Origin: a virus
Direction: 5' to 3' (one strand)
DNA length: 26,184 nt
IMG/VR virus record: IMGVR_UViG_3300042477_000229
Location: 1 to 26,184 of that record
Of this stretch, positions 2,506-24,933 are shown piece after piece; within the stretch, counting starts at the first letter, position 1; each line of letters opens with the position of its first letter. The notes below the pieces were generated by a model. It searched no databases. It was not told where the DNA came from and saw nothing but the letters and a program-made list of their open reading frames with translations. A program made the position numbers and the translations under genes.

Positions 2506-4640
2506 GCATGTCGTCTGCCAAGCCCGAAGCGGGCGAGGACGGTGCCGAGCGTATCCGGAAGATGGTGCGCGAGTATCTCGACACGATGGAAGAGGCCCGC
2601 GACCGCTCGGCCCTGGCGCGCGACTACTACGACGGCAAGCAATGGACGCGTGAGGAGATCGCGACCCTCAAGCAGCGCGGCCAGCCGCCTATCGTCTTCA
2701 ATCGCATCAAGCGCAAGGTGGACAGCATTCTCGGCGTCGAGCGCAACCGCCGCACCGATCCCAAGGCCTACCCGCGCACGCCACGCGACGAGCAGTCAGC
2801 CGACATCGTGACGCAGGCGCTGCGGTTCGTGAGCGACCAGACGCGGCTCAATAACATATTCTCTGGCGCTTTTGAATGCGGGATGATCGAGGGCGCGGGC
2901 GCTGCCGAAGTCATCATGGACGGGCCGGAAGACATTCGCGTCAACCTGATCCCGTGGGACGAGTTCATCTTCGACCCGAGAAGCAGCCGCCACGATTTCA
3001 GCGATGCGCGCTATTTGGGCGTCCTGAAGTGGATGGACGCGGACGACGCTATCAGCTTGTACCCCGACAAGGGCAAGGAGATCGAAGCGGGCATTACCGG
3101 CTCGGAAAAGGCGTTCGTTGCGGACCAGTCTGTAGACGACAAGCCGTCGTCCGGGACGTGGATCGACCGCAAAAGAAGAAGGGTTCAGGTCTGCCAGCTC
3201 TATTACAAGCAGGGCGCCGAACATAACTACGCGGTGGTTGTTGGCTCCACGCTGGTGATGGACGGGCCGAGCTACTACCGCGACGAGAAGGGCAAGACCG
3301 TCTGCCCAATCGAGGCATTCTCGGCCTACGTGGACCGCGAGAACGCCCGTTATGGCGTTGTCCACGACATGCGCGGGCCGCAAGACGAGATTAACCATCG
3401 CCGGTCCAAGGCCGTCCACTTCCTGCATTCGCGGCGCGTCATGGCCCAACAGGGTGCGGTGGCTGATGTCGGCCAGGCCAAGCGCGAGATTGCGCGTCCT
3501 GATGGGTGGGTCGAGGTTGTAGACCCGCAAGCCGTCTCAGTGCTGGACACAGCGCAGGAGACGACCGGCAACCTGAACATGTTGCAGGAAGCGAAAGCCG
3601 AGATTGACCTTCTCGGGCCGAACAACGCCTTGCAGGGCAAAGGCACGGAAGGCGAGAGCGGACGCGCCATCATTGCGCAGCAGCAGGCGGGGCTTGCCGA
3701 ACTCGCGCCGCTCTATGACCGGTTCAATGATTTCAAGCTGCGCGTCTACCGGGCGACATGGGCCAGGATCAAGCAATTCTGGAAAGCCCCGAAGTGGGTG
3801 CGCATCACGGACGATGAGCAGGCGACGCAATTCATCGGGCTGAACCAGGTGCAGGTTGACCCGATGACGGGCCAGCCGATGGTACAGAACGCCGTGGCGC
3901 AGATGGACGTGGACGTGATCCTTGAGACGGGACCGGACACGGTCACGCTTCAAAGCGAGGAGTTCGAGCAACTCGCGCAGATCATGCCGCAACTGGCCGC
4001 GCTGCCTCCGCCCTATGCGCTGGCGCTGATCGAGGCGAGCAGCCTGCCGGCGCAGCGCAAGAAGAAGATGACGGAACTGTTGTCGGGCGGTGGCGAGCAA
4101 AGCCCCGAGGCGCAGGCGATGGCGCAGAAGCAGGCCGAGATGGCCGAACGCGCTGCAATGGCCGAGATCGCGACAAAGGAAAGCTCCGCCGCGCTGAACA
4201 TGGCAAAGGCGCAGAACGAGGGTGCCCTTGCTCAGTCCAACATTGAGCTAGAGCGCGAGCGGATGACGGCTGAACAGGTCAAGGCGCAGGGCGAGACGGC
4301 TATCAAGGCGCAGGAACTACAGATCAAGCAGCAGGAACTGCAATTCAAGCTGGCCGAACTCGACCTGAAGCGCGCTGAACTCGGGCTGAAGCAGCAAGAA
4401 CTGGCGGCGAACGTCGAGATGGAACGGGAGCGTTCCGCGCTGACCGAACGCATGGCCGACCGGCAGGCGATGGCAGAGGACAATCGCGCGCAACGCGAGG
4501 CGTCGAAGCCCAAGGAAACCGAGAAGCCGGACAAGAGCGGGGATGCTGTGGGCATGGGCCTGCAAGCCCTGGCTGCGGCACTGAGCAAGCCTAAGTCAAT
4601 CGTCCGTGGTGCGGATGGCAAGCCGATAGGGATTGAATAA
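2490..4640 (+). CDS. Portal protein, P22-like
   Basis: This 716-residue protein is the dodecameric head vertex through which DNA enters and leaves. Early segments 'ARDYYDGKQW' and 'QPPIVFNRIKRKVDSILGVERNRR' (split here across about residues 45-85) are typical of the P22 gp1-type portal family. Residues about 536-677 form a long Gln/Glu/Ala-rich coiled coil, which matches the C-terminal barrel of the long P22-type portals. The chosen start is TTG at 2490 with AAAGG upstream; the ATG at 2508 has a poorer site. The gene overlaps the 68-residue gene before it, and its last base is the first base of the next start codon. Confidence 0.92.
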   Translation: MANIVSMSSAKPEAGEDGAERIRKMVREYLDTMEEARDRSALARDYYDGKQWTREEIATLKQRGQPPIVFNRIKRKVDSILGVERNRRTDPKAYPRTPRDEQSADIVTQALRFVSDQTRLNNIFSGAFECGMIEGAGAAEVIMDGPEDIRVNLIPWDEFIFDPRSSRHDFSDARYLGVLKWMDADDAISLYPDKGKEIEAGITGSEKAFVADQSVDDKPSSGTWIDRKRRRVQVCQLYYKQGAEHNYAVVVGSTLVMDGPSYYRDEKGKTVCPIEAFSAYVDRENARYGVVHDMRGPQDEINHRRSKAVHFLHSRRVMAQQGAVADVGQAKREIARPDGWVEVVDPQAVSVLDTAQETTGNLNMLQEAKAEIDLLGPNNALQGKGTEGESGRAIIAQQQAGLAELAPLYDRFNDFKLRVYRATWARIKQFWKAPKWVRITDDEQATQFIGLNQVQVDPMTGQPMVQNAVAQMDVDVILETGPDTVTLQSEEFEQLAQIMPQLAALPPPYALALIEASSLPAQRKKKMTELLSGGGEQSPEAQAMAQKQAEMAERAAMAEIATKESSAALNMAKAQNEGALAQSNIELERERMTAEQVKAQGETAIKAQELQIKQQELQFKLAELDLKRAELGLKQQELAANVEMERERSALTERMADRQAMAEDNRAQREASKPKETEKPDKSGDAVGMGLQALAAALSKPKSIVRGADGKPIGIE

Positions 4641-5080
4641 TGAGCAAGGGCAATACCTTTGAGAACGATCTGCTTTTGCTGATCTTCAACAACACCGCAG
4701 CGGCGCTCATTGGTGACGCATCGGGCCTGCAACCGTCAGCTACGGCGGGCTCGCTCTATGTGTCGCTTCACACGGGCGACCCGGGCGAAGCTGGAACCCA
4801 GACCACGAACGAATGCGCTTACACGAGCTATGCGCGGGTCGCTGTCGCGCGTTCTGGCGCGGGCTGGACGGTGTCGGGCAACGCCGTGACCAACGCTGCG
4901 CTTGTGCAGTTTCCGCAATGCACGGGCGGTTCCGAAACGGCGACATACTTCGCGATTGGCACGGCATCGAGCGGCACGGGCAAGGTGCTGTATCGGGGTG
5001 CGTTGTCGGCTTCGCTGGCGATTTCGTCGGGTATTCAGCCACAATTCGCTGCCGGTGACCTGGACGGCACCGAAGACTGA
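4640..5080 (+). CDS. Phage tail-fibre-like virion protein
   Basis: This 146-residue protein begins in a TAATG overlap with the portal gene. The N-terminus 'SKGNTFENDLLLLIFN', then 'GSLYVSLHTGDPGEAGTQ' and 'YARVAVAR', are hallmarks of a family widely annotated as phage tail fibre protein in tailed phages. The rest ('LYRGALSASLAISSGIQPQF') is beta-rich. It is a virion component by family and context; its exact location on the particle is unknown. It opens the block of six genes inserted between portal and scaffold. Confidence 0.75.
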   Translation: MSKGNTFENDLLLLIFNNTAAALIGDASGLQPSATAGSLYVSLHTGDPGEAGTQTTNECAYTSYARVAVARSGAGWTVSGNAVTNAALVQFPQCTGGSETATYFAIGTASSGTGKVLYRGALSASLAISSGIQPQFAAGDLDGTED

Positions 5081-5097
5081 ATTGAGGCGAGATCAGC

Positions 5098-5997
5098 ATG
5101 GCTGGCTTCCGCAACCTTCGCGCATGGACCGACGCGGACAACGCTGGGCAATGCCACTTCACCAGCTTCCGCAAGGCTGTCTCATCGACGGCCACGACGA
5201 CGAGCGCATGGATTGATTACAGCTACTTTCCGGGTGCGCCGACTGCCAACTTCTACGCATCCTCACCGCTTGAAGCAGCCTATGTGGATGCAGCGCGCGG
5301 CATCTACGTCCCGACCGTAACGCCTGCAACGCAATGGCTGCGCAACCTGAAGCTGATGAGCGCGGCGAGCAGCGCGACAAGCACGACGAGCGGGCGTCAG
5401 CAAATCGTTCTCGCTGACCTGCTGATGTACTATCCATTCGTGGATACCGATGCGGTAGGCGAACAGCAGGGCATGATTCAGACGGTGTCGCTGCCTCGCT
5501 ACACAAGCGGCAGGGTCATAGCGGTGGGTCAGTCGGCGTCATCGACCACGGGCCAGTTCACGTTCAGATACACTAATCAGGACGGCACGGCAGGACGGAC
5601 AAGCCAAAACCATTTCACCTTCGCGGTGGCTGGTGGCGGTCAGGTGGTGGCCTCAAGCGTTCAGAGCGCCACAAGCTATCACCCGTACCTGTCGCTCCAA
5701 GCTGGTGACAGCGGCGTGCGGTCTATTCAGTCGGTGACCTTCACGGCGGGCGGCGGCGGGCTGATGGCGCTGGTCATCGTGCAGCCTATCCTTGAGTGCT
5801 TCGTGACGCAGGAAAGCCGCAGGACAACGACTGGCAACCTTGAGAGCTACGGCGCGTGCGACGAGTTCGCCTCGGTCATCAATCACAGGCCGCGCCAGAT
5901 CAAGGACGGCGCAGTGCTTAACCTTTTCGCAGCCGGTCACGCTGGCTCCCTCGCCTCGTCGATCCTGGCGGGCATTCTTGAAACAACGTGGAACTGA
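5098..5997 (+). CDS. Virion structural protein, first of a related pair
   Basis: This 299-residue protein is rich in Ser, Thr, Ala and Gly, with no signal peptide or membrane helix. The start is ATG with GAGGCGAG upstream. It shares a recognisable pattern with the next gene: 'YHPYLSLQAGDSGVRSIQSV' around residue 200, a hydrophobic strand with 'VIVQPIL' near 225, and 'PRQIKDGAVLNLF' near 265. The next gene has 'YNPFLPLAAGDTGVSDIVSL', 'VIIGLCRPL' and 'PQIKDGANIQFL' in the same order. The pair therefore looks like an ancient duplication. Context and composition suggest a virion surface or appendage protein. No enzymatic motif is seen. Confidence 0.7.
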   Translation: MAGFRNLRAWTDADNAGQCHFTSFRKAVSSTATTTSAWIDYSYFPGAPTANFYASSPLEAAYVDAARGIYVPTVTPATQWLRNLKLMSAASSATSTTSGRQQIVLADLLMYYPFVDTDAVGEQQGMIQTVSLPRYTSGRVIAVGQSASSTTGQFTFRYTNQDGTAGRTSQNHFTFAVAGGGQVVASSVQSATSYHPYLSLQAGDSGVRSIQSVTFTAGGGGLMALVIVQPILECFVTQESRRTTTGNLESYGACDEFASVINHRPRQIKDGAVLNLFAAGHAGSLASSILAGILETTWN

Positions 5998-6000
5998 CGC

Positions 6001-6897
6001 ATGGGCTGGTCTTCACAGGACGACCTAATCAACCAGATCACGACCAACGGCAAAACAGGCAACGTCTATTCCAACAAAACCCTTTCATCTGCCGGAACGG
6101 CTGGTCACTGGACGCTGCTTGCTGGCCATGCGGGCTTTCCTGCGGCTGCGACGTTTGCGGGAGCGGACCTCACCTACGTAGCGACCAATGACACATGGGG
6201 CGAGGGAACGCTTTATCATGGTGGCAACGTCTCGACAGCGACGAAGCACTTCCTGACGGCTGGCGCGACAGTGGTCGCGGCTGCGGGTGCGCCGTGGTAT
6301 CTGATGGCGATTGACCTCGTTGGCTATGTGCCCTTGTCGGGAACCAACGTTTCGACCACGGGCACAAAGACCGTGACCATGACGGCGATTTCCAACACGG
6401 GCAGCACGGGTGATCGCTACGCCAATGGCGCCGGTCTTCAAATGTTCGTGGCGGCTGACACGGCGCTAGGCGCCAACGCGCCGACCTGCATTGTCAACTA
6501 TCTGGACACGGGCGGCGGCGCTGGTGCGACTACCACATTCACAAGCACGGCCTCGCTCGGCGTGGGTCAACTGCTCAACTCTGGGACTGCGGCCAACAAG
6601 TACAACCCGTTCCTTCCGCTTGCGGCGGGCGACACGGGTGTGTCCGACATCGTCTCGCTGGTCTGGGCGGGCACGGCGCACGCATCGGGTACGGTCATCA
6701 TCGGCCTGTGCCGGCCGCTGTGGACTATCCCGGTCCCGGCGACGGGCCTCTATACCAAGCTGGACTTCGTGAACGCCTTCCCGTCGCTGCCGCAAATCAA
6801 GGACGGGGCGAACATCCAGTTTCTCATGTTCCAGACCGGCGCCACGACCTCTGCCGGATCGATCATGGTGGATTTTGATTGGGGATATGGCGGCTGA
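6001..6897 (+). CDS. Virion structural protein, second of a related pair
   Basis: This 298-residue protein starts three bases after the stop of its relative. Its first residues 'MGWSSQDDLINQITTNGKTGNVYSNK' (split at residue 18) differ from the first copy, while the C-terminal half matches it in motif order ('AAGDTGV', 'QIKDGA'). N-terminal divergence with a conserved C-terminal half suggests that the two proteins attach to different partners or work as a hetero-oligomer (inference). It is beta-rich with low charge and no membrane segment. Its stop overlaps the next start as TGATG, so it is coupled to the 50-residue gene. Confidence 0.7.
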   Translation: MGWSSQDDLINQITTNGKTGNVYSNKTLSSAGTAGHWTLLAGHAGFPAAATFAGADLTYVATNDTWGEGTLYHGGNVSTATKHFLTAGATVVAAAGAPWYLMAIDLVGYVPLSGTNVSTTGTKTVTMTAISNTGSTGDRYANGAGLQMFVAADTALGANAPTCIVNYLDTGGGAGATTTFTSTASLGVGQLLNSGTAANKYNPFLPLAAGDTGVSDIVSLVWAGTAHASGTVIIGLCRPLWTIPVPATGLYTKLDFVNAFPSLPQIKDGANIQFLMFQTGATTSAGSIMVDFDWGYGG

Positions 6898-7049
6898 TGG
6901 ATAAATCTCTGCTCGACATCATCAACGATTTCGCAAGCTGGCGGGGCAACCCGTTTACCTTGGCCGCGCTTCTTATTGCGCAGCATACGGAACTGGTTAA
7001 ACAGCGCCTGATCAATGCGGGCTTTCAGGAAGCAGCGGATGCGCTCTAA
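6897..7049 (+). CDS. Hypothetical 50-residue protein
   Basis: The ATG overlaps the preceding stop (TGATG) and the TAA overlaps the following start (TAATG), so this short frame bridges two virion genes with no spare base. The product is 'MDKSLLDIINDFASW', then 'RGNPFTLAALLIAQHTELV' and an amphipathic end 'KQRLINAGFQEAADAL'. It looks wholly helical and soluble. Perfect start-stop coupling on both sides is strong evidence that it is translated. The family is unknown; a small assembly factor is one possibility. Confidence 0.65.
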   Translation: MDKSLLDIINDFASWRGNPFTLAALLIAQHTELVKQRLINAGFQEAADAL

Positions 7050-7837
7050 TGGCTTTGCTCCAGAACGGCTTCCGTGACGCATCGGCGGGCGTTCGTATCT
7101 TCGGGGCGACACAGAGCAACAACGCTTATCCGCCTGCGCTTCAGAGCAACAACGACAAGGCGGGCACAAAGCGGAATATCTTCACGGCTCAAGGCTATTC
7201 GGCCAAGTCGGGTATCCCAAGCGGCCACCTGCATCCCTCAAGCTGGATGCTGCCTCAGAAGCCTGGTGGTCTGTCCAGCCACTCCGAGAGCATCGGCGTT
7301 GCAAGCTGGTCTGGCGGGATTGCTGCGGGCCGGAATATCGTCGGCACGTTCGATGGCGCTGCGACATTCACCGGCACGGGTCAGCTCGTTGTTTCGGGTG
7401 TCGGCTCATTTGCCGGTGTTGGAGCCTTCGCAGGCAACGTCACGGCGGCTCTGGGTGCGGTTGGATCATTCACAGGCGCTGCGACGTTCTCAGGCGCTGT
7501 GGTGGCGACCGGACACATGCTTGGGGCCTTTACGGGTGTCGCAAGCTTCGAGGCGATCCGGTATGCGACGGGGTCCGTGTCGGGTTCATTTGCCCCGGCC
7601 ATCACACTGGAGGCGCAAGGGTTCTCGTCCTACCTGCTCGATCAGGAAGACGTTGAGACGGGCCTCACGCTGAGGCAGGCGCTGCGTCTGGTGACGGCGG
7701 CAACGGCGGGCAAGATCAGCGGCGGCGGGACGGCTACCATCACGATCCGCAATGCGGTGGCTGACGGCGCAAACCGCATCGTGGCAAGCGTGGACACGGA
7801 CGGCAATCGAACCGCCATAACCTACGACCTCGACTGA
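7049..7837 (+). CDS. Virion protein with five 20-residue repeats
   Basis: This 262-residue protein has an N-terminal part (1-98) containing 'SGHLHPSSWMLP', a repeat region (99-198) and a C-terminal domain (about 200-262). The repeats begin with Gly-X-Phe at residues 99, 119, 139, 159 and 179, exactly 20 apart; the core is G-[ST]-F-[TA]-G-[AV]-A-[TS]-F. Such regular short beta repeats suit a beta-solenoid fibre shaft (inference). The C-terminal part 'LTLRQALRLVTAATAGKISG' followed by 'VDTDGNRTAITYDLD' is a small domain that recurs at the ends of many phage proteins. The gene is coupled on both sides by TAATG and TGATG. Confidence 0.75.
   Translation: MALLQNGFRDASAGVRIFGATQSNNAYPPALQSNNDKAGTKRNIFTAQGYSAKSGIPSGHLHPSSWMLPQKPGGLSSHSESIGVASWSGGIAAGRNIVGTFDGAATFTGTGQLVVSGVGSFAGVGAFAGNVTAALGAVGSFTGAATFSGAVVATGHMLGAFTGVASFEAIRYATGSVSGSFAPAITLEAQGFSSYLLDQEDVETGLTLRQALRLVTAATAGKISGGGTATITIRNAVADGANRIVASVDTDGNRTAITYDLD
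7343..7642 (+). repeat. Five 60-base coding repeats
   Basis: The repeat units lie at 7343-7402, 7403-7462, 7463-7522, 7523-7582 and 7583-7642. Each starts with codons for Gly-X-Phe. The first four keep Gly-X-Phe-X-Gly; the fifth keeps only the opening Gly-Ser-Phe and is the most degenerate. Conservation is at the protein level; the DNA copies have diverged, so this is an old internal duplication rather than an unstable tandem repeat. Confidence 0.8.
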
Positions 7838-8295
7838 TGGCCAATTTCTTCTCAGCCGACTACTGGAAAGCGCTCTACTTCAAGGCGGCGGGCGGGCAGG
7901 AAACTGCAACCGATCCTAACGCGATGTCTGGCAGTTTTGCGGGCTCGTCCGAGTTCACCGCAACGCTGTCAGGTCAGGGTACTGAAGAAGTTCAGTCGCG
8001 CTCGCAAGGCGGCTTTGAAGACCCCTACTATTACAAGAAGCGCAAGAAGAAGAAGCCTGAGCCCGTCTCCAAGGACTTCGGGGACGATTGGCAACCGCCG
8101 ATGGTGCGGCCGGCAATCCCGCCGCTGGCAGCGCAAGACATCATCGCGCGCCAGGATGCAGCCTTTGCCAGGACGCAGGCCGCGATTGTCGCGGCGCTCG
8201 AGCAATACGACCGGCAACGCGCCGAGGCACTGGCCCGCGCTGCGCAGGAACAGGAAGACGAGGACGAGGCGATCATGCTGCTGATGGCAGCGTAA
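7837..8295 (+). CDS. Virion-associated protein sharing the repeat motif
   Basis: This 152-residue protein starts in a TGATG overlap. Its N-terminus 'MANFFSADYWKALYFKA' followed by 'DPNAMSGSFAGSSEF' recurs in many phage and prophage late regions, as far as I recall. Residues 32-40 carry one copy of the Gly-Ser-Phe-X-Gly motif that is repeated in the upstream protein. The middle is basic ('YYYKKRKKKKPEP', 60-72) and the end is a helical, charged segment (about 100-150). No enzyme motif is seen. It is last in its transcription unit, with a terminator 27 bases downstream. Confidence 0.65.
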   Translation: MANFFSADYWKALYFKAAGGQETATDPNAMSGSFAGSSEFTATLSGQGTEEVQSRSQGGFEDPYYYKKRKKKKPEPVSKDFGDDWQPPMVRPAIPPLAAQDIIARQDAAFARTQAAIVAALEQYDRQRAEALARAAQEQEDEDEAIMLLMAA

Positions 8296-18349: not shown

Positions 18350-20110
18350 ATGGCCGCAACTGGCGTTCCGTTCTACATTCCCGCCGTCGCGGCTAACGGC
18401 ACAGTCGCGTCCTCATTTAAGGTCAACGGCTGGGTTCCGACATCCGCAGGCGCACCGACTGCAACGCGCCGCACGTTCTACACTGACGCAGAACTGACGA
18501 CGCCCGCAAGCAACCCCGCCACGCTTGGCGCATCGGGGCGCGTGTTCTACGTCAACCCCGCGCTGTCCTATGCGTTCACCATCACCGACGCTGCCGGGGC
18601 GGTGACGTATGACACCATCTATATGCCTGCCGAACTGGATGCGGCCGGCGCTGCGGTCCTGACGCCTCTCGTGGTGTCCAACAATGCAGCTCTCACGGCG
18701 CTGACGTCCAGCACAGGGCTCGTGGACAACGGGCTTTACCAGACGCTAGGCCGCACAACCGAAAACGATGGCGGGCAGGGCCAGTGGCTCTACGACAGCG
18801 CATCGACCGCAACGGCGAACGGCGGGACGATCCTGGCGATTGACGGCGGAGGGGCCGGGCGGTTCTTCCGCATCCTCGACGTTCCCCGCGTTGTCTGGGT
18901 CCAGTGGTTCGGGGATCTGACGACTGCAAGCGGGTTCACGGCTGCACTGCGAGCGGCGATTACGGCGGCGGGCTTGGGCGGTGAGGTGCATATCCCTTAT
19001 GGATCATACACTTATAATGACAGTTTCACGCTTCTCAGCGCGCAGCGCATCATCGGGCATGGCCTGCCGGTAATGACCAAGGCCGCGAACGTGGCGTCTA
19101 CGTTCATCATGACGAATGCCACGCGCGCCGAGATCGATGGCGTCTATCTGGCGGGCGCTGGCGGAACCTATACCGGAGCGGGCGTCTACATGGGCGCCCA
19201 TGCCGAGAGCTACGAGCAGCGCGTTGTCAATTGCGTCATCTATGATTTCGCGGGCGCGTGCGTTCACTTTGACGGGGCGGATGCAGGCAGCAAGGCTGAA
19301 GTCATCAACGGCCTGATGCGTCGCACAAACTACACGACTGATGCATCCATCGTAGGAACGACGACCGTAGACACAGCGGGTAACCGCAAGATCACGGATA
19401 TCATTACGGATGGCGGCGTTATCGTCGCCGTCAACAAGATGTTCAACACAGAGATTTCAGGCTGTAGCGGAAGAAGCATAGACTTCTCCGGATCGGATGG
19501 CATCCAGACACGAACCCGTCTCTATGGAAACCGTCTAGCAACCACCGGGCCGGACCAGGATATCTACGGCAACGACAACTCCATCGTGGGCAATGTGATC
19601 GCCGGCGGCCTCACGCTTAAAGGCGCCGCGTCGCGCAACCACGTTTCTGGAAACGTGTTGGCTACTTCGGAGGTTCCTGCCGACGAGAGCACGGCCACGG
19701 GCGATAACTGCAACTGGATTGATCACGCAGAATACACCTTCACGCCCACGATCAAAGCCGACTCGGTCGATCCAGCGGTTTGGGCAAGCACATTTGGCCG
19801 GATCCAGAGAACCGGAAAGAAGCTGCGCATCACATGCGGCGCGACGGCGGGCGCATCAACCACGTTCGGAACCGGATCATGGTATGTCCAGCTCCCATCA
19901 CCGTTTAACGGCTTTGTGTGGAAGGCGCAGACGATTGGATCAATCCGCATCTTGGACACCGGAACGCAATACTTCACAGGGACCGCGTCAGCCAGCGCCG
20001 GCGGTAACAAGATTTACTTTGAGGTCACGCAGTCAGTCGGCCCAACTCATCCGATGACATGGGCGAACGGCGATGCGTTCGTGGTCGAGATTGAAGTCGA
20101 AATCTCGTGA
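18350..20110 (+). CDS. Tailspike protein, beta-helix receptor-binding type
   Basis: This 586-residue protein probably binds, and may cleave, a surface polysaccharide. Residues 1-95 form an N-terminal virion-attachment region with 'TRRTFYTDAELTTP' and 'GRVFYVNPALSYAFTITDAAG', a pattern common on phage spikes. From about residue 180 ('VVWVQWFGD', then 'GGEVHIPYGSYTY') to about 450 the sequence has the spacing of a right-handed pectate-lyase-like beta-helix. The last about 125 residues ('YTFTPTIK' onward) resemble a small jelly-roll found at the end of phage fibres, perhaps a trimerisation domain. No catalytic residues can be assigned by eye. Its 3' end overlaps a convergent gene by 64 bases. 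Confidence 0.82.
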   Translation: MAATGVPFYIPAVAANGTVASSFKVNGWVPTSAGAPTATRRTFYTDAELTTPASNPATLGASGRVFYVNPALSYAFTITDAAGAVTYDTIYMPAELDAAGAAVLTPLVVSNNAALTALTSSTGLVDNGLYQTLGRTTENDGGQGQWLYDSASTATANGGTILAIDGGGAGRFFRILDVPRVVWVQWFGDLTTASGFTAALRAAITAAGLGGEVHIPYGSYTYNDSFTLLSAQRIIGHGLPVMTKAANVASTFIMTNATRAEIDGVYLAGAGGTYTGAGVYMGAHAESYEQRVVNCVIYDFAGACVHFDGADAGSKAEVINGLMRRTNYTTDASIVGTTTVDTAGNRKITDIITDGGVIVAVNKMFNTEISGCSGRSIDFSGSDGIQTRTRLYGNRLATTGPDQDIYGNDNSIVGNVIAGGLTLKGAASRNHVSGNVLATSEVPADESTATGDNCNWIDHAEYTFTPTIKADSVDPAVWASTFGRIQRTGKKLRITCGATAGASTTFGTGSWYVQLPSPFNGFVWKAQTIGSIRILDTGTQYFTGTASASAGGNKIYFEVTQSVGPTHPMTWANGDAFVVEIEVEIS

Positions 20111-20946
20111 GATGCGCGGATCTCATAGCGCCGCCCGTTTGTGTTCGGGTCGGTATTGTCGCTGGTCGAGAACAGGACGCGCGGACCAGTTGGGTAGTCC
20201 CAATGAGAGTATCTACCCCCTCCAATCTCCCTAATGTCGGCGTGAGACACCTGCGCGTGCGCCAGCGGCTTGCCGTCCTCAAAGAGGCGCACCAACCCGT
20301 CAATCGGGTCCGGTGCCGGCATCATCCACGCGAACCCCTCTTCCTTGCGATAGTGCGTGAAGTTGATCTTGCGGCGAAGCGTCGTGAACCACGTCCCGCC
20401 AATGAGTTCTCCGTCACCGAGAACGCCGGCGAGCGTCATCCGGTCAACCCATTCCTTGACGATGGACGCCTTTTCCTGACCGAACTGAGGATCGACCCAA
20501 TAGTCATCGAGAACAACCACACAGCCGGGCCGCATGTATTTGGCAAAGACCGAGAACTGTTCAGCGCATCGCCCGTCACCATCAAAGAAGAACAGGCCGA
20601 TGGAGCCGCTGTGCACAATGGCGGGACGGAACGCGCGGCTGTCGGTACTCCAACCCTCGAACATGCGGACATGGTCGGCAACGCCGAAGCGATCCACGTT
20701 CGCGCGCCAGTCGCGGATAATGTCGTCAGAGGGCAAGTGCGGCTGATCAGGGTAGCTGCCGCCGCAGTCGATGACAGCGTGCTGCCTGCGGCCCATGTGA
20801 CCACTAACAAGCGCGATAGTCGAGCCGCCGATGTAGGAGCCGACTTCCAGAATGCCGCCTTCACCTTCACGGGCGAGCGCCTGAAGACGTTCAAGAACCG
20901 GCGTTTCCAACATGCTGATGCGCCGCACTTCCGAGAGGTCAACCAT
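20047..20946 (-). CDS. Class I SAM-dependent methyltransferase with extra C-terminal domain
   Basis: This 299-residue protein lies opposite to all late genes around it. Motif I 'ILEVGSYIGGST' is at residues 32-43; 'GLFFFDGDG' (117-125) and 'VVVLDDYW' (143-150) are later core strands of the Methyltransf_24-like fold. Residues about 195-299 form an added beta-rich domain with 'GGGRYSHWDYPTGPRVLFS' (242-260) and 'DNTDPNTNGRRYE' (263-275), which I cannot name. The ATG at 20946 has AGAAGGG upstream; a TTG two codons earlier is possible. The substrate is unknown; beside a tailspike, modification of a surface sugar is a reasonable guess only. It is probably an accessory (moron) gene. Confidence 0.8.
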   Translation of the reverse strand: MVDLSEVRRISMLETPVLERLQALAREGEGGILEVGSYIGGSTIALVSGHMGRRQHAVIDCGGSYPDQPHLPSDDIIRDWRANVDRFGVADHVRMFEGWSTDSRAFRPAIVHSGSIGLFFFDGDGRCAEQFSVFAKYMRPGCVVVLDDYWVDPQFGQEKASIVKEWVDRMTLAGVLGDGELIGGTWFTTLRRKINFTHYRKEEGFAWMMPAPDPIDGLVRLFEDGKPLAHAQVSHADIREIGGGRYSHWDYPTGPRVLFSTSDNTDPNTNGRRYEIRASHEISTSISTTNASPFAHVIG

Positions 20947-21622
20947 GTCCAACCCTTCTGATAAAATCGCGTCAGGCTACCACGCCCGTTGCGTTTGGTT
21001 GTACGAGAAAGTTGTCGGCGAGCGAGATGTGATCACTCACGTCAAGTGCTCGTTGCGCATGAATGAAGTCCCGTTGTTGGAAGCCATCGCAGAGCTTCCC
21101 GCACCAGACCCGCAAGCGTTCACAGAATACTGGAGCGACACGGACAACCCGCTGTGGACGGACATGCAAGACCCGGCGGGCTTTGAACGGCCTGAGTACG
21201 TCCAGCGCGACAAGCTCGCCCCGTGGGCATGGTCCGTGCTAGACAAGGCCGCGCTGGAAGCCGAGGGCCTGGCGCTGTGGCGGGCAATCCTCGCGGCGCG
21301 TCAGACGGAAGCGGCGCCCGACCTTGCCGCAGAGCTTCGCGCGCTGCGTGAACGGCTCGATGCGATGACGGCCAGAGAACCGGCGCCAGAGCCCGCGCCC
21401 ATCGAACCCGAAACGCATTTCGCAGACCTGATGCTGGCAGACGAGACGCTTGACGACGCCAAGGCGCGTCTCTCGCAGCGCCTGCGCGAGCTTCGTCACT
21501 ACCTGATCGCCCCGGAAATCAAGGTCAACGAGGACGGCTCTGTCGGCCTCACTGCGGGCGAGCAGTCGGAACTGCAAGACCTTGAGCGAAGGCAGACGCT
21601 GGGGCGCTGGCTCGAAGCCTGA
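20945..21622 (+). CDS. Hypothetical protein at the start of the lysis region
   Basis: This 225-residue acidic protein starts at the ATG at 20945, behind GAGAGGT; an upstream in-frame ATG at 20912 lies inside the opposite gene and has no better site. The N-terminal half is globular, with several Trp ('VWLYEKVVGE', 'AFTEYWSDTDNPLWTDM', 'KLAPWAWSVLD'). Residues about 125-150 form an Arg/Glu helix, then a Pro/Glu/Ala linker, then a helical end ('LSQRLRELRHYL', 'DLERRQTLGRWLEA'). It has no signal or membrane segment. Its start codon shares CATG with the opposite methyltransferase gene. The family is unrecognised; a spike-associated or lysis-linked role cannot be chosen. Confidence 0.65.
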   Translation: MSNPSDKIASGYHARCVWLYEKVVGERDVITHVKCSLRMNEVPLLEAIAELPAPDPQAFTEYWSDTDNPLWTDMQDPAGFERPEYVQRDKLAPWAWSVLDKAALEAEGLALWRAILAARQTEAAPDLAAELRALRERLDAMTAREPAPEPAPIEPETHFADLMLADETLDDAKARLSQRLRELRHYLIAPEIKVNEDGSVGLTAGEQSELQDLERRQTLGRWLEA

Positions 21623-21647: not shown

Positions 21648-22055
21648 ATGGATGACGATTTCAACGAGCGCTTCAAGGCGCTCAAGCGTGAATTGCGTGA
21701 GGTTGCGGAGGACTTCGAACAGCTCAGGAAGCGCAAGGCAAACGGAGAAGACGTGGAACAGATCGCAGCGAAGGTGACCGCCATCGAAACCGAAATGCGG
21801 ACCAAGTTCGCATCGCTCCAATCCGACAGCCAGGAAGTCCGCCACGCGCTCCAGAAACTCGTTGAGACAATCGAACATCTCCGCACTGACCTGTCAGTCC
21901 ACAAGCGAGAAATTGCGCAGGTACAGGACACGCAGAAAATTTCGGGATGGTCGCGCATCCCTGTCGCCGGATGGGTGCTTATGGCGGTCGGATGCTTCGC
22001 GGTGATGCAGCTCGGCCTCGAGAGATGGGCTGAGTTTCAGGGGCTGGGCCGTTGA
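21648..22055 (+). CDS. Coiled-coil protein with C-terminal membrane anchor
   Basis: This 135-residue protein has AAAAGG before its ATG. Residues 1-95 are an almost unbroken charged coiled coil ('FKALKRELREVAEDFEQLRK', 'VRHALQKLVETIEHLRTDL'). Residues about 107-126 ('AGWVLMAVGCFAVMQLGL') form one membrane segment near the end. This layout resembles the XhlA-type proteins of phage lysis regions, which are shorter. The next gene's TTG overlaps its stop, so the two are probably made together. A direct role in lysis is inferred from position only. Confidence 0.6.
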   Translation: MDDDFNERFKALKRELREVAEDFEQLRKRKANGEDVEQIAAKVTAIETEMRTKFASLQSDSQEVRHALQKLVETIEHLRTDLSVHKREIAQVQDTQKISGWSRIPVAGWVLMAVGCFAVMQLGLERWAEFQGLGR

Positions 22056-23065
22056 GAGCCCCCACAAAAGCAGAGTGGGCGTCTGCTGGCCGCTGGGTCA
22101 GGGATCACGCTCCCGCGTTCACTGTGTCCTTCGTGACGTTCTCGGCGCTCTGGGCCGCTGTCGTGGTGGCGTGCCTGACGCTCTACGTATGGGACAGCCA
22201 ATTTTACTCCAGCCTCGCGCCGCCCGGCATGGAAGCCAGCTTCATGGCTGCGGGGATCGTCTTCAGGACGTTCGTCATCTTCGGCGGTCTGGCAATCGTC
22301 TGGATGAAGACCAACAAGCTGAACCCTGCTGCCGGCCGCACGCTGCGCTTCATCTGGGTTATGGGGCTTGTGGCTTGCGGTGTCGCGGCGCTGGGCTTCG
22401 TGACCGAGGGCAATGATTATCACTACCGCAAGGGCGCAGCCATCACGCAGACCGAGACGGCATCAACGGAAAGCGCCGACACGATCATTGCCCGCGCAAC
22501 TGGCGAGAAGGAAGCAATTCGCGCCGACCGTGACAGGCTGGTTGCGGGCGCCCGTGAAAGCATGCGGCTCGTGCTGTCTGACGGCATTGGCGGCAATGAC
22601 AACCTGACCGCATTCGAAGCGCAGATTGCAGCTTATGAAGACGACGCACGCATCAAGCTTGCGGCGCAGGATGAAGTGATCACGAAAGCCGAAACAGACC
22701 GTCTCGGCGCGCGACAGCAGGCCACGGAGGCCGCTGTAGGCGATCCGGCTTTGCCTGCGGTGTTCCAGGCTCCCGCGCGCTATTTCCCCGGCTTCGATGG
22801 CGTGACCTTCCGGGACATGTTCGCGCTGTTCTGGGTGATCCTGCTCGAGGCGTGCGGCTCTGTCGGCGCGCAGGCTTTGCTTGCGGTCCAGATGGGTATG
22901 AGCAAGCGCAAGGAAGCGCAGGAAAACGGAGCCAAGGGCGGGCGCACCACATCGCGCCGCCGCCTGATCGAAGACATGCGCAAGGCGCGAACCGAAACCA
23001 AAGCCGATCTCTCGGAGGACAAGAACGATGGCGATAGAAATTCTCCGCCGCAGGCCGCCGAGTGA
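22052..23065 (+). CDS. Four-segment membrane protein of unknown function
   Basis: This 337-residue protein starts with TTG in a TTGA overlap, with AGGGG upstream. Likely membrane segments are at 24-47, 65-86, 98-117 and 255-280. Between the third and fourth lies a charged, helical region (about 120-250) that would face the periplasm; the C-terminal tail is basic ('MSKRKEAQ', 'KGGRTTSRRR'), in line with a cytoplasmic location. It is too large for a standard holin. It is coupled to the coiled-coil protein before it and overlaps the lysozyme gene by 38 bases. Possible roles include lysis control or exclusion of other phages, but no known family is recognised. Confidence 0.65.
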   Translation: MRAPTKAEWASAGRWVRDHAPAFTVSFVTFSALWAAVVVACLTLYVWDSQFYSSLAPPGMEASFMAAGIVFRTFVIFGGLAIVWMKTNKLNPAAGRTLRFIWVMGLVACGVAALGFVTEGNDYHYRKGAAITQTETASTESADTIIARATGEKEAIRADRDRLVAGARESMRLVLSDGIGGNDNLTAFEAQIAAYEDDARIKLAAQDEVITKAETDRLGARQQATEAAVGDPALPAVFQAPARYFPGFDGVTFRDMFALFWVILLEACGSVGAQALLAVQMGMSKRKEAQENGAKGGRTTSRRRLIEDMRKARTETKADLSEDKNDGDRNSPPQAAE

Positions 23066-24212
23066 GCTGTACCCGTCGAAGGCCGCGCTAGACCTTATCC
23101 GACACTTCGAGGGGTTGAGCCTTACCGGCTACCTCGACCCTATCGGCATCCCCACCATCGGATACGGCAGGACCGGGCCTGTAGCTGTCGTGGGCAAGCG
23201 CATCACGCTGGCCGAAGCCGACGCGCTGCTTGACGAAGACGTGGCACGACACGCGCAGATTGTGCGGGACCAGATCACAGTGCCGCTCACGCAAGGCGAG
23301 TTCGATGCCCTCGCAAGTTTGGTCTTCAATCTAGGCTATATACCCAAAAGCCTGAAAGCCTGCCTCAACGGCGGCGTGACAGACGCGGGCAAGGTGATGA
23401 CGCCAGGCAGCTACGGCTCGGCGCTGTTGCAGTTCCCGCGCAACTGCCGCGCAGGTGGCAAGCCGCTCAAGGGCCTGTACCGGCGAAGGCTGGCTGAGGC
23501 GTGCCTGTTCTGCGACCTCCCGTGGGAGAACGCCTGTTCGATCAGCGTGGTCCAGCTATCTGTCGATGAGGCTGGCAAGATCGACACGAACGAAAGCACG
23601 TCTCTGGAAGACACCCTTATGCGTGCGCGGCTGGACACATCGCGCCCGCCTGACACGTCTCACATTCTCAAGAAACAGTGGTCCGAGCTGGTCAAGCCCG
23701 AACCCGTCAAAGCTGAGCCTGAAGCCGTGCCGGCGCCAGGCGATGCGGAGCCAGCGGAGAAGGAAGCCCCCCAGCCCAACCCCCCTCCGCTGGTATCTGC
23801 CCCCGTTCCTGCGCAGCCGAGTGGTCCCGCTGTCGCAGGGCCGGCGGTGGAGGCTGGCGTATCTCAGCCCCCGCCGCCGGTTTCCAAAGGGCCGCCAAAG
23901 GTTGAGCCGAAACCGCCGCGTCTGCCAGATCCGCCCGTTCCCATCGGCCAACAGACCGGCGCTGTAGACGCTGCGAGAAAGTCGGAGGAGTGGTCATCAT
24001 CTGCCAAGTCGATGATCTACTCCCGCCGATTTTGGGGCCTTCTCCTGGTTGTGGCGGGCCGTGTGTGGATGCTCAAAACTGGCAGCAACGCGGTTCTTGG
24101 GGCTGTTTCTGATCCGCTCGTGATGGAGATGTTCTCAGGCTTCATGGTCATGGTGATCGGGGAAGCCGTCCAGCACTGGGGCGAACGCAAAGCGACACGG
24201 CCTCTCAAATGA
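23028..24212 (+). CDS. Endolysin: GH24 lysozyme fused to a proline-rich linker and membrane tail
   Basis: This 394-residue muramidase cleaves peptidoglycan. Residues 15-165 are the T4/P22 lysozyme-type domain with the triad Glu28, Asp37 and Thr43 in the exact T4 spacing (9 and 6 residues). 'VPLTQGEFDALASLVFNLG' (85-103) is also typical. A Pro-rich linker (222-305) follows. The tail (325-394) has two hydrophobic segments, about 335-350 and 366-383, in a pattern that resembles small phage holins ('SRRFWGLLL' start, basic end). There is no N-terminal signal peptide. The start is ATG behind GGAGG. A membrane-tethered or holin-fused lysozyme is unusual; most relatives are about 150-180 residues. 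Confidence 0.88.
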   Translation: MAIEILRRRPPSELYPSKAALDLIRHFEGLSLTGYLDPIGIPTIGYGRTGPVAVVGKRITLAEADALLDEDVARHAQIVRDQITVPLTQGEFDALASLVFNLGYIPKSLKACLNGGVTDAGKVMTPGSYGSALLQFPRNCRAGGKPLKGLYRRRLAEACLFCDLPWENACSISVVQLSVDEAGKIDTNESTSLEDTLMRARLDTSRPPDTSHILKKQWSELVKPEPVKAEPEAVPAPGDAEPAEKEAPQPNPPPLVSAPVPAQPSGPAVAGPAVEAGVSQPPPPVSKGPPKVEPKPPRLPDPPVPIGQQTGAVDAARKSEEWSSSAKSMIYSRRFWGLLLVVAGRVWMLKTGSNAVLGAVSDPLVMEMFSGFMVMVIGEAVQHWGERKATRPLK

Positions 24213-24511
24213 TGGCGCTGTGGATGGGCCTGCCACAATGGGCGCGCACTGCGCTCATGTGGTGCGGCGCGCTGTTCATGATGGCGCTGACCGGCAAGTT
24301 CCTGCTGTCGCAGCACGACAAGCGCATCCGCAGGGAAGTGAACGACGCGCGCGACATCGAAGCCGCGCAAGTAGAGTCGGAAGTCCTCACCCAGATCACG
24401 GAAAACACAAATGAAGTCGTTCGCGAGGCTGACGCTGTGCGCAGCCATACCGCTGTTGTCGAGCTGCCAGACGGAACCAAAAGCCTCCCCCAATATCATT
24501 ACCGCGACTAG
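24209..24511 (+). CDS. Inner-membrane spanin (Rz-like)
   Basis: This 100-residue protein starts in an ATGA overlap with the lysozyme gene. An N-terminal membrane segment is at about 13-33 ('RTALMWCGALFMMALTGKFL'), followed by a charged helical stretch (36-80) that would reach into the periplasm. A lipoprotein gene is nested in its 3' part in another frame. This is the classic arrangement of i-spanin and o-spanin, which fuse inner and outer membranes at the last step of lysis in Gram-negative hosts. It is shorter than lambda Rz. Sequence similarity is not used here; topology and nesting are. Confidence 0.75.
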   Translation: MMALWMGLPQWARTALMWCGALFMMALTGKFLLSQHDKRIRREVNDARDIEAAQVESEVLTQITENTNEVVREADAVRSHTAVVELPDGTKSLPQYHYRD

Positions 24512-24686
24512 CGGCGCGATCTGGAAAGAGGCGCTCTGCACCACGGGGACGCCGATCCTGATCTCGCGCGGCGACGTGCTGACGCTCCCGACCGCCGAGG
24601 CAATCGGGGACCACAACAACGCGATCTTCTGCGCTTGTCCGGAGAAGCGGCCTCCGGCGTTTGATGCCGCCATTTGCAAAACATAG
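24411..24686 (+). CDS. Outer-membrane lipoprotein spanin (Rz1-like)
   Basis: This 91-residue protein begins with a lipoprotein signal peptide: 'MKSFARLTLCAAIPLLSSC' with the lipobox Leu-Ser-Ser-Cys and lipidated Cys19. The mature part contains 'ISRGDVLTLPTAEAIGDHNN' (51-70) and three further Cys. The gene begins 101 bases before the i-spanin stop and runs in another frame, so the pair is partly overlapping. It should sit in the outer membrane and bind the i-spanin through its C-terminus. It is longer than lambda Rz1 and not notably Pro-rich. Confidence 0.78.
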   Translation: MKSFARLTLCAAIPLLSSCQTEPKASPNIITATSGAIWKEALCTTGTPILISRGDVLTLPTAEAIGDHNNAIFCACPEKRPPAFDAAICKT

Positions 24687-24696
24687 GAGACTTGAC

Positions 24697-24933
24697 GTGA
24701 ACATTCTCGGGCTGGAAATCACAAGCAAGGGGGGCGCCGTGAACTGGATGAATGTTCGCCGGTTCTTCTACGTTGCAATCGTAACCTGGCTGGTCGGCGT
24801 TCGCCTGATCGGCTTGAACCCGTTCGATGACAAATCCATCGGGCTGGACACCATCCTCGACGGCCTCGCGCTGTACGCCGTCTGGCTGATCGTCTGGCAC
24901 ATGCTCTGGGCCTTGCGTCCGAAGTTCAGCTAA
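24697..24933 (+). CDS. Two-segment small membrane protein, holin candidate
   Basis: A GTG at 24697 with AGGAG seven bases upstream opens a 78-residue frame; an in-frame ATG at 24661 has no such site and overlaps the spanin gene. Hydrophobic segments lie at about 22-40 ('FFYVAIVTWLVGVRLIGL') and 54-72 ('LALYAVWLIVWHMLWAL'), with a short polar turn between. Size and topology fit a two-segment holin, but the lysozyme's own membrane tail and other genes nearby are rivals for that role. The N-terminus is 'NILGLEITSKGGAVNW'. Confidence 0.6.
   Translation: MNILGLEITSKGGAVNWMNVRRFFYVAIVTWLVGVRLIGLNPFDDKSIGLDTILDGLALYAVWLIVWHMLWALRPKFS

Follow-up and report, generated by a model that had tools for sequence, protein, structure and literature searches.

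A GH24 lysozyme joined through a proline-rich linker to a conserved, exchangeable tail that likely tethers it to the membrane in uncultured phages

The window analyzed in this study (the whole stretch of DNA, 26,184 bases, from an IMG/VR record) represents an uncultured short-tailed phage. Its closest named relative is the Pseudanabaena cyanophage Pam1 (61% for TerL and 49.5% for the major capsid protein). A gene on the plus strand (positions 23028-24212) encodes a 394-amino-acid protein composed of a GH24 lysozyme, a Pro-rich linker and a predicted two-helix tail. Its open reading frame is intact, runs from an ATG at 23028 to a TGA at 24210-24212, exactly as delimited in the first-pass annotation, and is preceded on the 5' side of the ATG by a GGAGGA motif.

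The neighboring genes of the lysis region are also on the plus strand. Upstream are genes for a 135-amino-acid protein (21648-22055), which gave coiled-coil-type matches and has one C-terminal hydrophobic segment, and for a 337-amino-acid protein (22052-23065) with four hydrophobic segments, whose gene overlaps the start of the lysozyme gene. On the other side, the lysozyme stop codon overlaps, through ATGA, the gene for a candidate Rz-like i-spanin (24209-24511), assigned from one N-terminal hydrophobic segment, its position and a weak match to phrog_1026 (E = 0.11). The gene for an Rz1-like o-spanin lipoprotein (24411-24686; phrog_1275, Rz-like spanin, E = 3e-8) starts inside the Rz-like gene. 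It is followed by a gene for a 90-amino-acid protein (24661-24933) with two hydrophobic segments (Kyte-Doolittle values of 1.73 and 1.78). By size and shape, which are usual for a class II holin, this protein is the best holin candidate, and it matched no family in Pfam, PHROGs or NCBIfam. Rz1 is followed by a two-segment ORF of 60-90 amino acids in the window as well as in the majority of the relatives examined. The proteins encoded at this position in different relatives show no clear homology, and in two contigs (L065 and L069) only a 55-amino-acid, single-segment ORF is found there. In two other contigs (L009, 6164-7046; L058, 5234-5919), an insert of about 0.7-0.9 kb lacking an obvious gene lies between the lysozyme-tail gene and Rz.

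Two further regions of the window were noted. A methyltransferase-like gene (20047-20952; Pfam Methyltransf_24, E = 3e-9) is located on the minus strand among plus-strand neighbors, between a long ORF that is tailspike-like by position (18350-20110) and the lysis region. In addition, about 3.7 kb between the portal gene and the gene in the scaffold position (4640-8295) contain several ORFs, two of which (5098-5997 and 6001-6897) are weakly related (31% over 96 amino acids); Pam1 has almost no space there.

The lysozyme domain (residues 26-157, positions 23103-23498) matches Pfam Phage_lysozyme (PF00959) with an E value of 9e-28 (97.5 bits against a cut-off of 22.3), and for most of its length the pLDDT exceeds 90 in an AlphaFold model of the fusion built with 22 aligned sequences. 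In T4 lysozyme the catalytic residues are E11, D20 and T26, and the putative catalytic residues of the window protein, E28, D37 and T43, have the same spacing. Most relatives that carry the fusion have either E-D-T or E-C-T at these positions. In three contigs (L059, L064 and L066) the triad is replaced by E-C-E, with Cys at the Asp position and Glu at the Thr position, so the activity of these lysozymes is uncertain. Hydropathy analysis (Kyte-Doolittle) detected no hydrophobic segment at the N-terminus of the fusion protein, and thus neither a signal peptide nor the weakly hydrophobic N-terminal transmembrane segment typical of SAR endolysins. A pattern method found no relatives of the lysozyme domain in bacterial genomes.

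The linker (residues 222-317, positions 23691-23978) contains 29 Pro among its 96 residues and is predicted to be disordered, pLDDT being below 50 over most of its length. The tail (residues 318-394, positions 23979-24209), hereafter tail A, comprises 77 residues. AlphaFold predicted helices at residues 311-330, 333-350 and 363-388 with moderate confidence; a model of a fusion carrying another tail type, tail B, was of low confidence and was left out. The first tail helix (residues 333-350, positions 24024-24077) is weakly hydrophobic and has Arg345 inside it, and the second (residues 363-388, positions 24114-24191) is followed by a basic C-terminus, so that basic residues lie at both ends of the hairpin. 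Scored by the best 19-residue Kyte-Doolittle window, the two segments reach 1.18 and 1.57, both below 1.6 and hence marginally hydrophobic. The characterized tails of the phage endolysins M4Lys (1.33 and 1.57) and Enc34 ORF39 (1.17 and 1.57) score alike. A shuffle test for two strong transmembrane segments gave no support, neither tail segment reaching its cut-offs, and hydropathy alone would be no proof of membrane insertion. The architecture drawn in the first-pass annotation, i.e., a complete GH24 domain with a Glu-Asp-Thr triad, a long Pro-rich linker, a C-terminal tail with two hydrophobic segments and no signal peptide, is borne out in all these parts, the hydrophobic segments being present but weak.

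That annotation had also proposed a search for the same fusion in relatives. Using the whole protein and the tail as two separate queries of IMG/VR, we found the fusion in 38 other contigs, some of which are near-identical to one another. In 37 of them the frame is uninterrupted and the stop codon follows the tail. In the remaining one (L067, 4197-5216) two stretches, in the lysozyme part and in the linker, are out of frame, and the frame is regained before the tail; these breaks are probably sequence errors. In all 13 records tested (26-54 kb) the fusion is the sole GH24 gene.

The tail was fused to a lysozyme in all 38 contigs. With a profile of tail A (profile A1), every one of 11 records gave exactly one site, behind a lysozyme, and a record with tail B gave none. 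No stand-alone tail gene was found by tail searches of IMG/VR or by the profile scan of the records, the pattern method detected no relatives of the tail in bacterial genomes, and named phages gave chance-level matches only for tail A and none for tail B. No holin family was matched by the fusion (Pfam, PHROGs) or by the tail alone (PHROGs, NCBIfam). When the tail was compared between the window and two related contigs, pS was 0.24 and pN 0.00 with L017, and pS was 0.63 and pN 0.04 with L018. Because pN is far below pS, the tail is conserved as protein, under strong purifying selection, and these values reject conservation at the DNA level in place of the protein level.

Three types of tail (A, B and C) occur behind these lysozymes. 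Tail A is that of the window, tail B is found, for example, in L020, L021, L034 and L075, and tail C, a distant relative of tail A, in L030 and L070. Both tail A and tail C have an invariant Met329. An internal start at this residue, which would make a free tail, was judged a weak candidate: the purine-rich GAGGAG motif is 21 nt away on the 5' side and lacks conservation.

The linker evolves under relaxed selection (mean pS 0.39, pN 0.23), and the divergence on its two sides differs. Compared with the window, the lysozyme of L009 is almost identical (pS 0.055) and its tail divergent (pS 0.86), whereas in L017 and L022 the lysozymes are divergent (pS 0.64-0.72) and the tails close (pS about 0.2). 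Tail A also sits on quite different lysozymes in L033, L059, L063, L064 and L066, which are without the upstream genes of the window. These contrasts and the foreign lysozymes under tail A place the junction within the linker. Judged from the flanking pS values, lysozymes and tails have been exchanged by recombination at the linker in both directions. The two upstream genes (those starting at 21648 and 22052) accompany the enzyme half, and Rz/Rz1 usually accompany the tail. The latter association is attributable to the adjoining position of the genes: other Rz/Rz1 genes are found at tail B loci, and the L058 locus is mixed. An obligate pairing of tail and spanin types was rejected since L058 combines tail A with a tail-B-type Rz1.

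The fusion and its conservation, the active-site residues, the predicted disorder of the linker, and the conservation and exchange of the tail are the observations on which an interpretation has to build. We infer from them how the tail would insert and be oriented in the membrane, which protein would serve as holin and how the enzyme would cross. The gene product would be a phage endolysin with an active-looking GH24 lysozyme, and the tail likely tethers this enzyme to the inner membrane, to judge by its modeled helices and by analogy with known membrane-tailed lysins. Lacking a signal peptide, the enzyme would reside in the cytoplasm at the end of a flexible linker of about 100 residues, with the tail forming an N-in/C-in hairpin, a topology that the flanking charges make probable. 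At lysis a hole would be formed, most likely by the product of the gene at 24661, to whose action the tail may or may not contribute; the tethered enzyme would reach peptidoglycan through this hole, the disordered linker giving it the reach, and Rz/Rz1 would then disrupt the outer membrane.

We consider this explanation, taken as a whole, somewhat better than an even bet. It is based on the GH24 catalytic residues, the single GH24 gene per record and the position before Rz/Rz1; on a tail that is always fused to lysozyme, conserved, helical in the model and flanked by basic residues; and on the separate small two-segment protein in the cassette together with precedents for C-terminal membrane segments. 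Against it stand the marginal hydropathy of the tail, a holin candidate that matches no family, the lack of clear homology among the proteins at the 24661 position and the single-segment ORF of L065 and L069.

A trivial origin of the fusion, by a sequencing or assembly frameshift that joined two separate genes, had been named as one outcome that would undo the first-pass annotation. The disrupted frame in the linker of L067 shows that errors do occur in such contigs, but the uninterrupted arrangement in the other 37, the codon-level selection across the tail and the failure of the IMG/VR tail search to find a separate tail gene refute this origin, to which we assign a negligible probability; the single fused gene stands. 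The same annotation had suggested that the tail, should it insert in the membrane, tethers the enzyme, and that this implies either release by C-terminal insertion or a single protein with the work of both holin and endolysin. In the second case the tail would oligomerize as a holin or pinholin and open the membrane for its own lysozyme. The two helices and the basic C-terminus are as in class II holins, the flanks being basic and the hydropathy weak, and the tail is strongly conserved. Moreover, M4Lys lyses Escherichia coli unaided and without Sec, and its membrane domain is bacteriostatic by itself (PMC7143992). However, spanin genes and a separate two-segment protein lie downstream, the latter in most relatives, and therefore the tail need not serve as the phage's holin. 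The tail also matches no holin family, never occurs alone and has no well-placed ribosome site before Met329. We thus do not favor a protein with both jobs, which seems unlikely to us. The same low expectation attaches to its extended form, in which the tail would be a timed membrane-opening device of a single holin-endolysin polypeptide whose lysozymes and tails are interchanged through the Pro-rich linker.

Two other roles of the tail appear slightly less probable again. SAR segments are weakly hydrophobic, and the tail segments share this property, which would fit a C-terminal counterpart of a SAR segment that moves the enzyme into the periplasm ahead of lysis, its activity or release being controlled by membrane depolarization. 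Sec-linked export by a C-terminal segment was proposed by the authors who described the Acidovorax phage AP1 lysin LysAP (PMC8879335). On the other hand, a folded N-terminal domain has no known route out by means of a C-terminal signal, as argued in PMC8943055, lysis by M4Lys is independent of Sec (PMC7143992), and the basic residues on both flanks of the tail suggest N-in; hence we regard such export as doubtful. About as doubtful is a tail that acts, for example, as an interaction domain for a spanin or holin partner or as an amphipathic membrane-active segment, with ordinary holes releasing the enzyme. Marginal hydropathy and the usual co-occurrence of the tail with Rz/Rz1 would agree with it, but adjacency accounts for the latter, L058 breaks the pairing, and the segments of tail B have Kyte-Doolittle values of 1.61 and 2.05. 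Tethering to the membrane, which the first-pass annotation expected of an inserted tail, therefore remains the best reading of the tail, on the basis of its conservation, the modeled helices and the analogy to M4Lys, Enc34 and LysAP.

Lysins with C-terminal membrane tails are already known, as are a GH24 version (LysAP) and the layout of SpmX; the novelty of this system consists in its long linker, the unrelated and interchangeable tails, and the pattern of swapping. Our data extend the two-helix tail design to GH24 enzymes of uncultured Pam1-like phages, in which the tail is under strong selection. Several natural tails on near-identical enzymes form a test set for the way in which lysins of this kind get across the inner membrane. 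The value of the system thus lies in natural enzyme-tail combinations for the unsolved question of export, and not in a new principle.

It was for phage Siskin that a new class of endolysins, with two membrane segments at the C-terminus and an N-in/C-in topology by prediction, was put forward (PMC6498227), and later studies addressed such lysins in M4Lys of phage BSPM4 (PMC7143992) and Enc34 ORF39 (PMC8943055). The membrane segment at the C-terminus is important for lysis or toxicity in M4Lys, Enc34 and LysAP (PMC7143992, PMC8943055, PMC8879335), and in M4Lys and LysAP lysis requires it (PMC7143992, PMC8879335). Like the Siskin, M4Lys and Enc34 proteins, the fusion has an N-terminal enzyme, C-terminal hydrophobic segments modeled as two helices, no signal peptide and a basic C-terminus, and in Enc34, as in the window, spanin genes are located downstream (PMC8943055). 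Two-helix C-terminal membrane tails have been described as apparently restricted to Chi-like and related phages (PMC8943055). In the Chi-like endolysins, however, the enzyme is PHA02564 and not GH24, the linker is short and the tail sequence is unrelated by eye. The fusion would therefore work like these endolysins and yet fall outside their family, because its enzyme is GH24 and its tail is unmatched beyond chance in named phages.

C-terminal hydrophobic segments are also present in other GH24 enzymes. LysAP shares the GH24 domain, the E-D-T triad and a C-terminal membrane segment on which lysis depends (PMC8879335), but it has 228 amino acids, a short linker, one annotated transmembrane segment and a different tail sequence. 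Lysozymes of the Roseobacter phages CRP-3, CRP-212, CRP-235 and CRP-738 and of Rhizobium phage P106B also combine GH24 with a C-terminal hydrophobic pair and are followed by an Rz-like ORF; their tail sequences differ from that of the fusion, the CRP enzymes have a short linker, and P106B has, by eye, a region resembling a peptidoglycan-binding domain in between. The proteins of CRP-235 (L090, 1183-1917) and P106B (L092, 1465-2448) are annotated only as lysozyme despite these hydrophobic pairs, which suggests that membrane-tailed GH24 lysins are under-annotated. An uncultured Caudovirales phage protein (A0A6J5RPU8, UniProt/BFVD) is 54% identical over essentially the full length of the fusion, and its entry, named only endolysin, makes no mention of a tail. 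Pam1 itself has an unrelated lysozyme of 169 amino acids, GH108-like by eye, with no tail. A natural holin-endolysin fusion is known in the TpeE type of Clostridium sporogenes (PMC9527704), in which the holin is N-terminal, the host Gram-positive and the family unrelated.

The same order of parts is found outside phages. SpmX, a polarity protein of Caulobacterales, has a lysozyme domain, a Pro-rich intermediate domain and two C-terminal transmembrane segments (PMC5347347), the corresponding segments of the fusion being predicted only. The SpmX model NF051871 (NCBIfam) matched part of our lysozyme domain (E = 4e-12, 45.9 bits against a cut-off of 700) and did not match the tail. SpmX is a cellular scaffold protein that reportedly derives from a phage lysin (Randich 2019, cited by PMC12364344 and PMC8987985). 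The presence of its domain order in phage lysins, a link of architecture only and not of sequence, therefore means that the phage origin of SpmX could exceed its enzyme domain.
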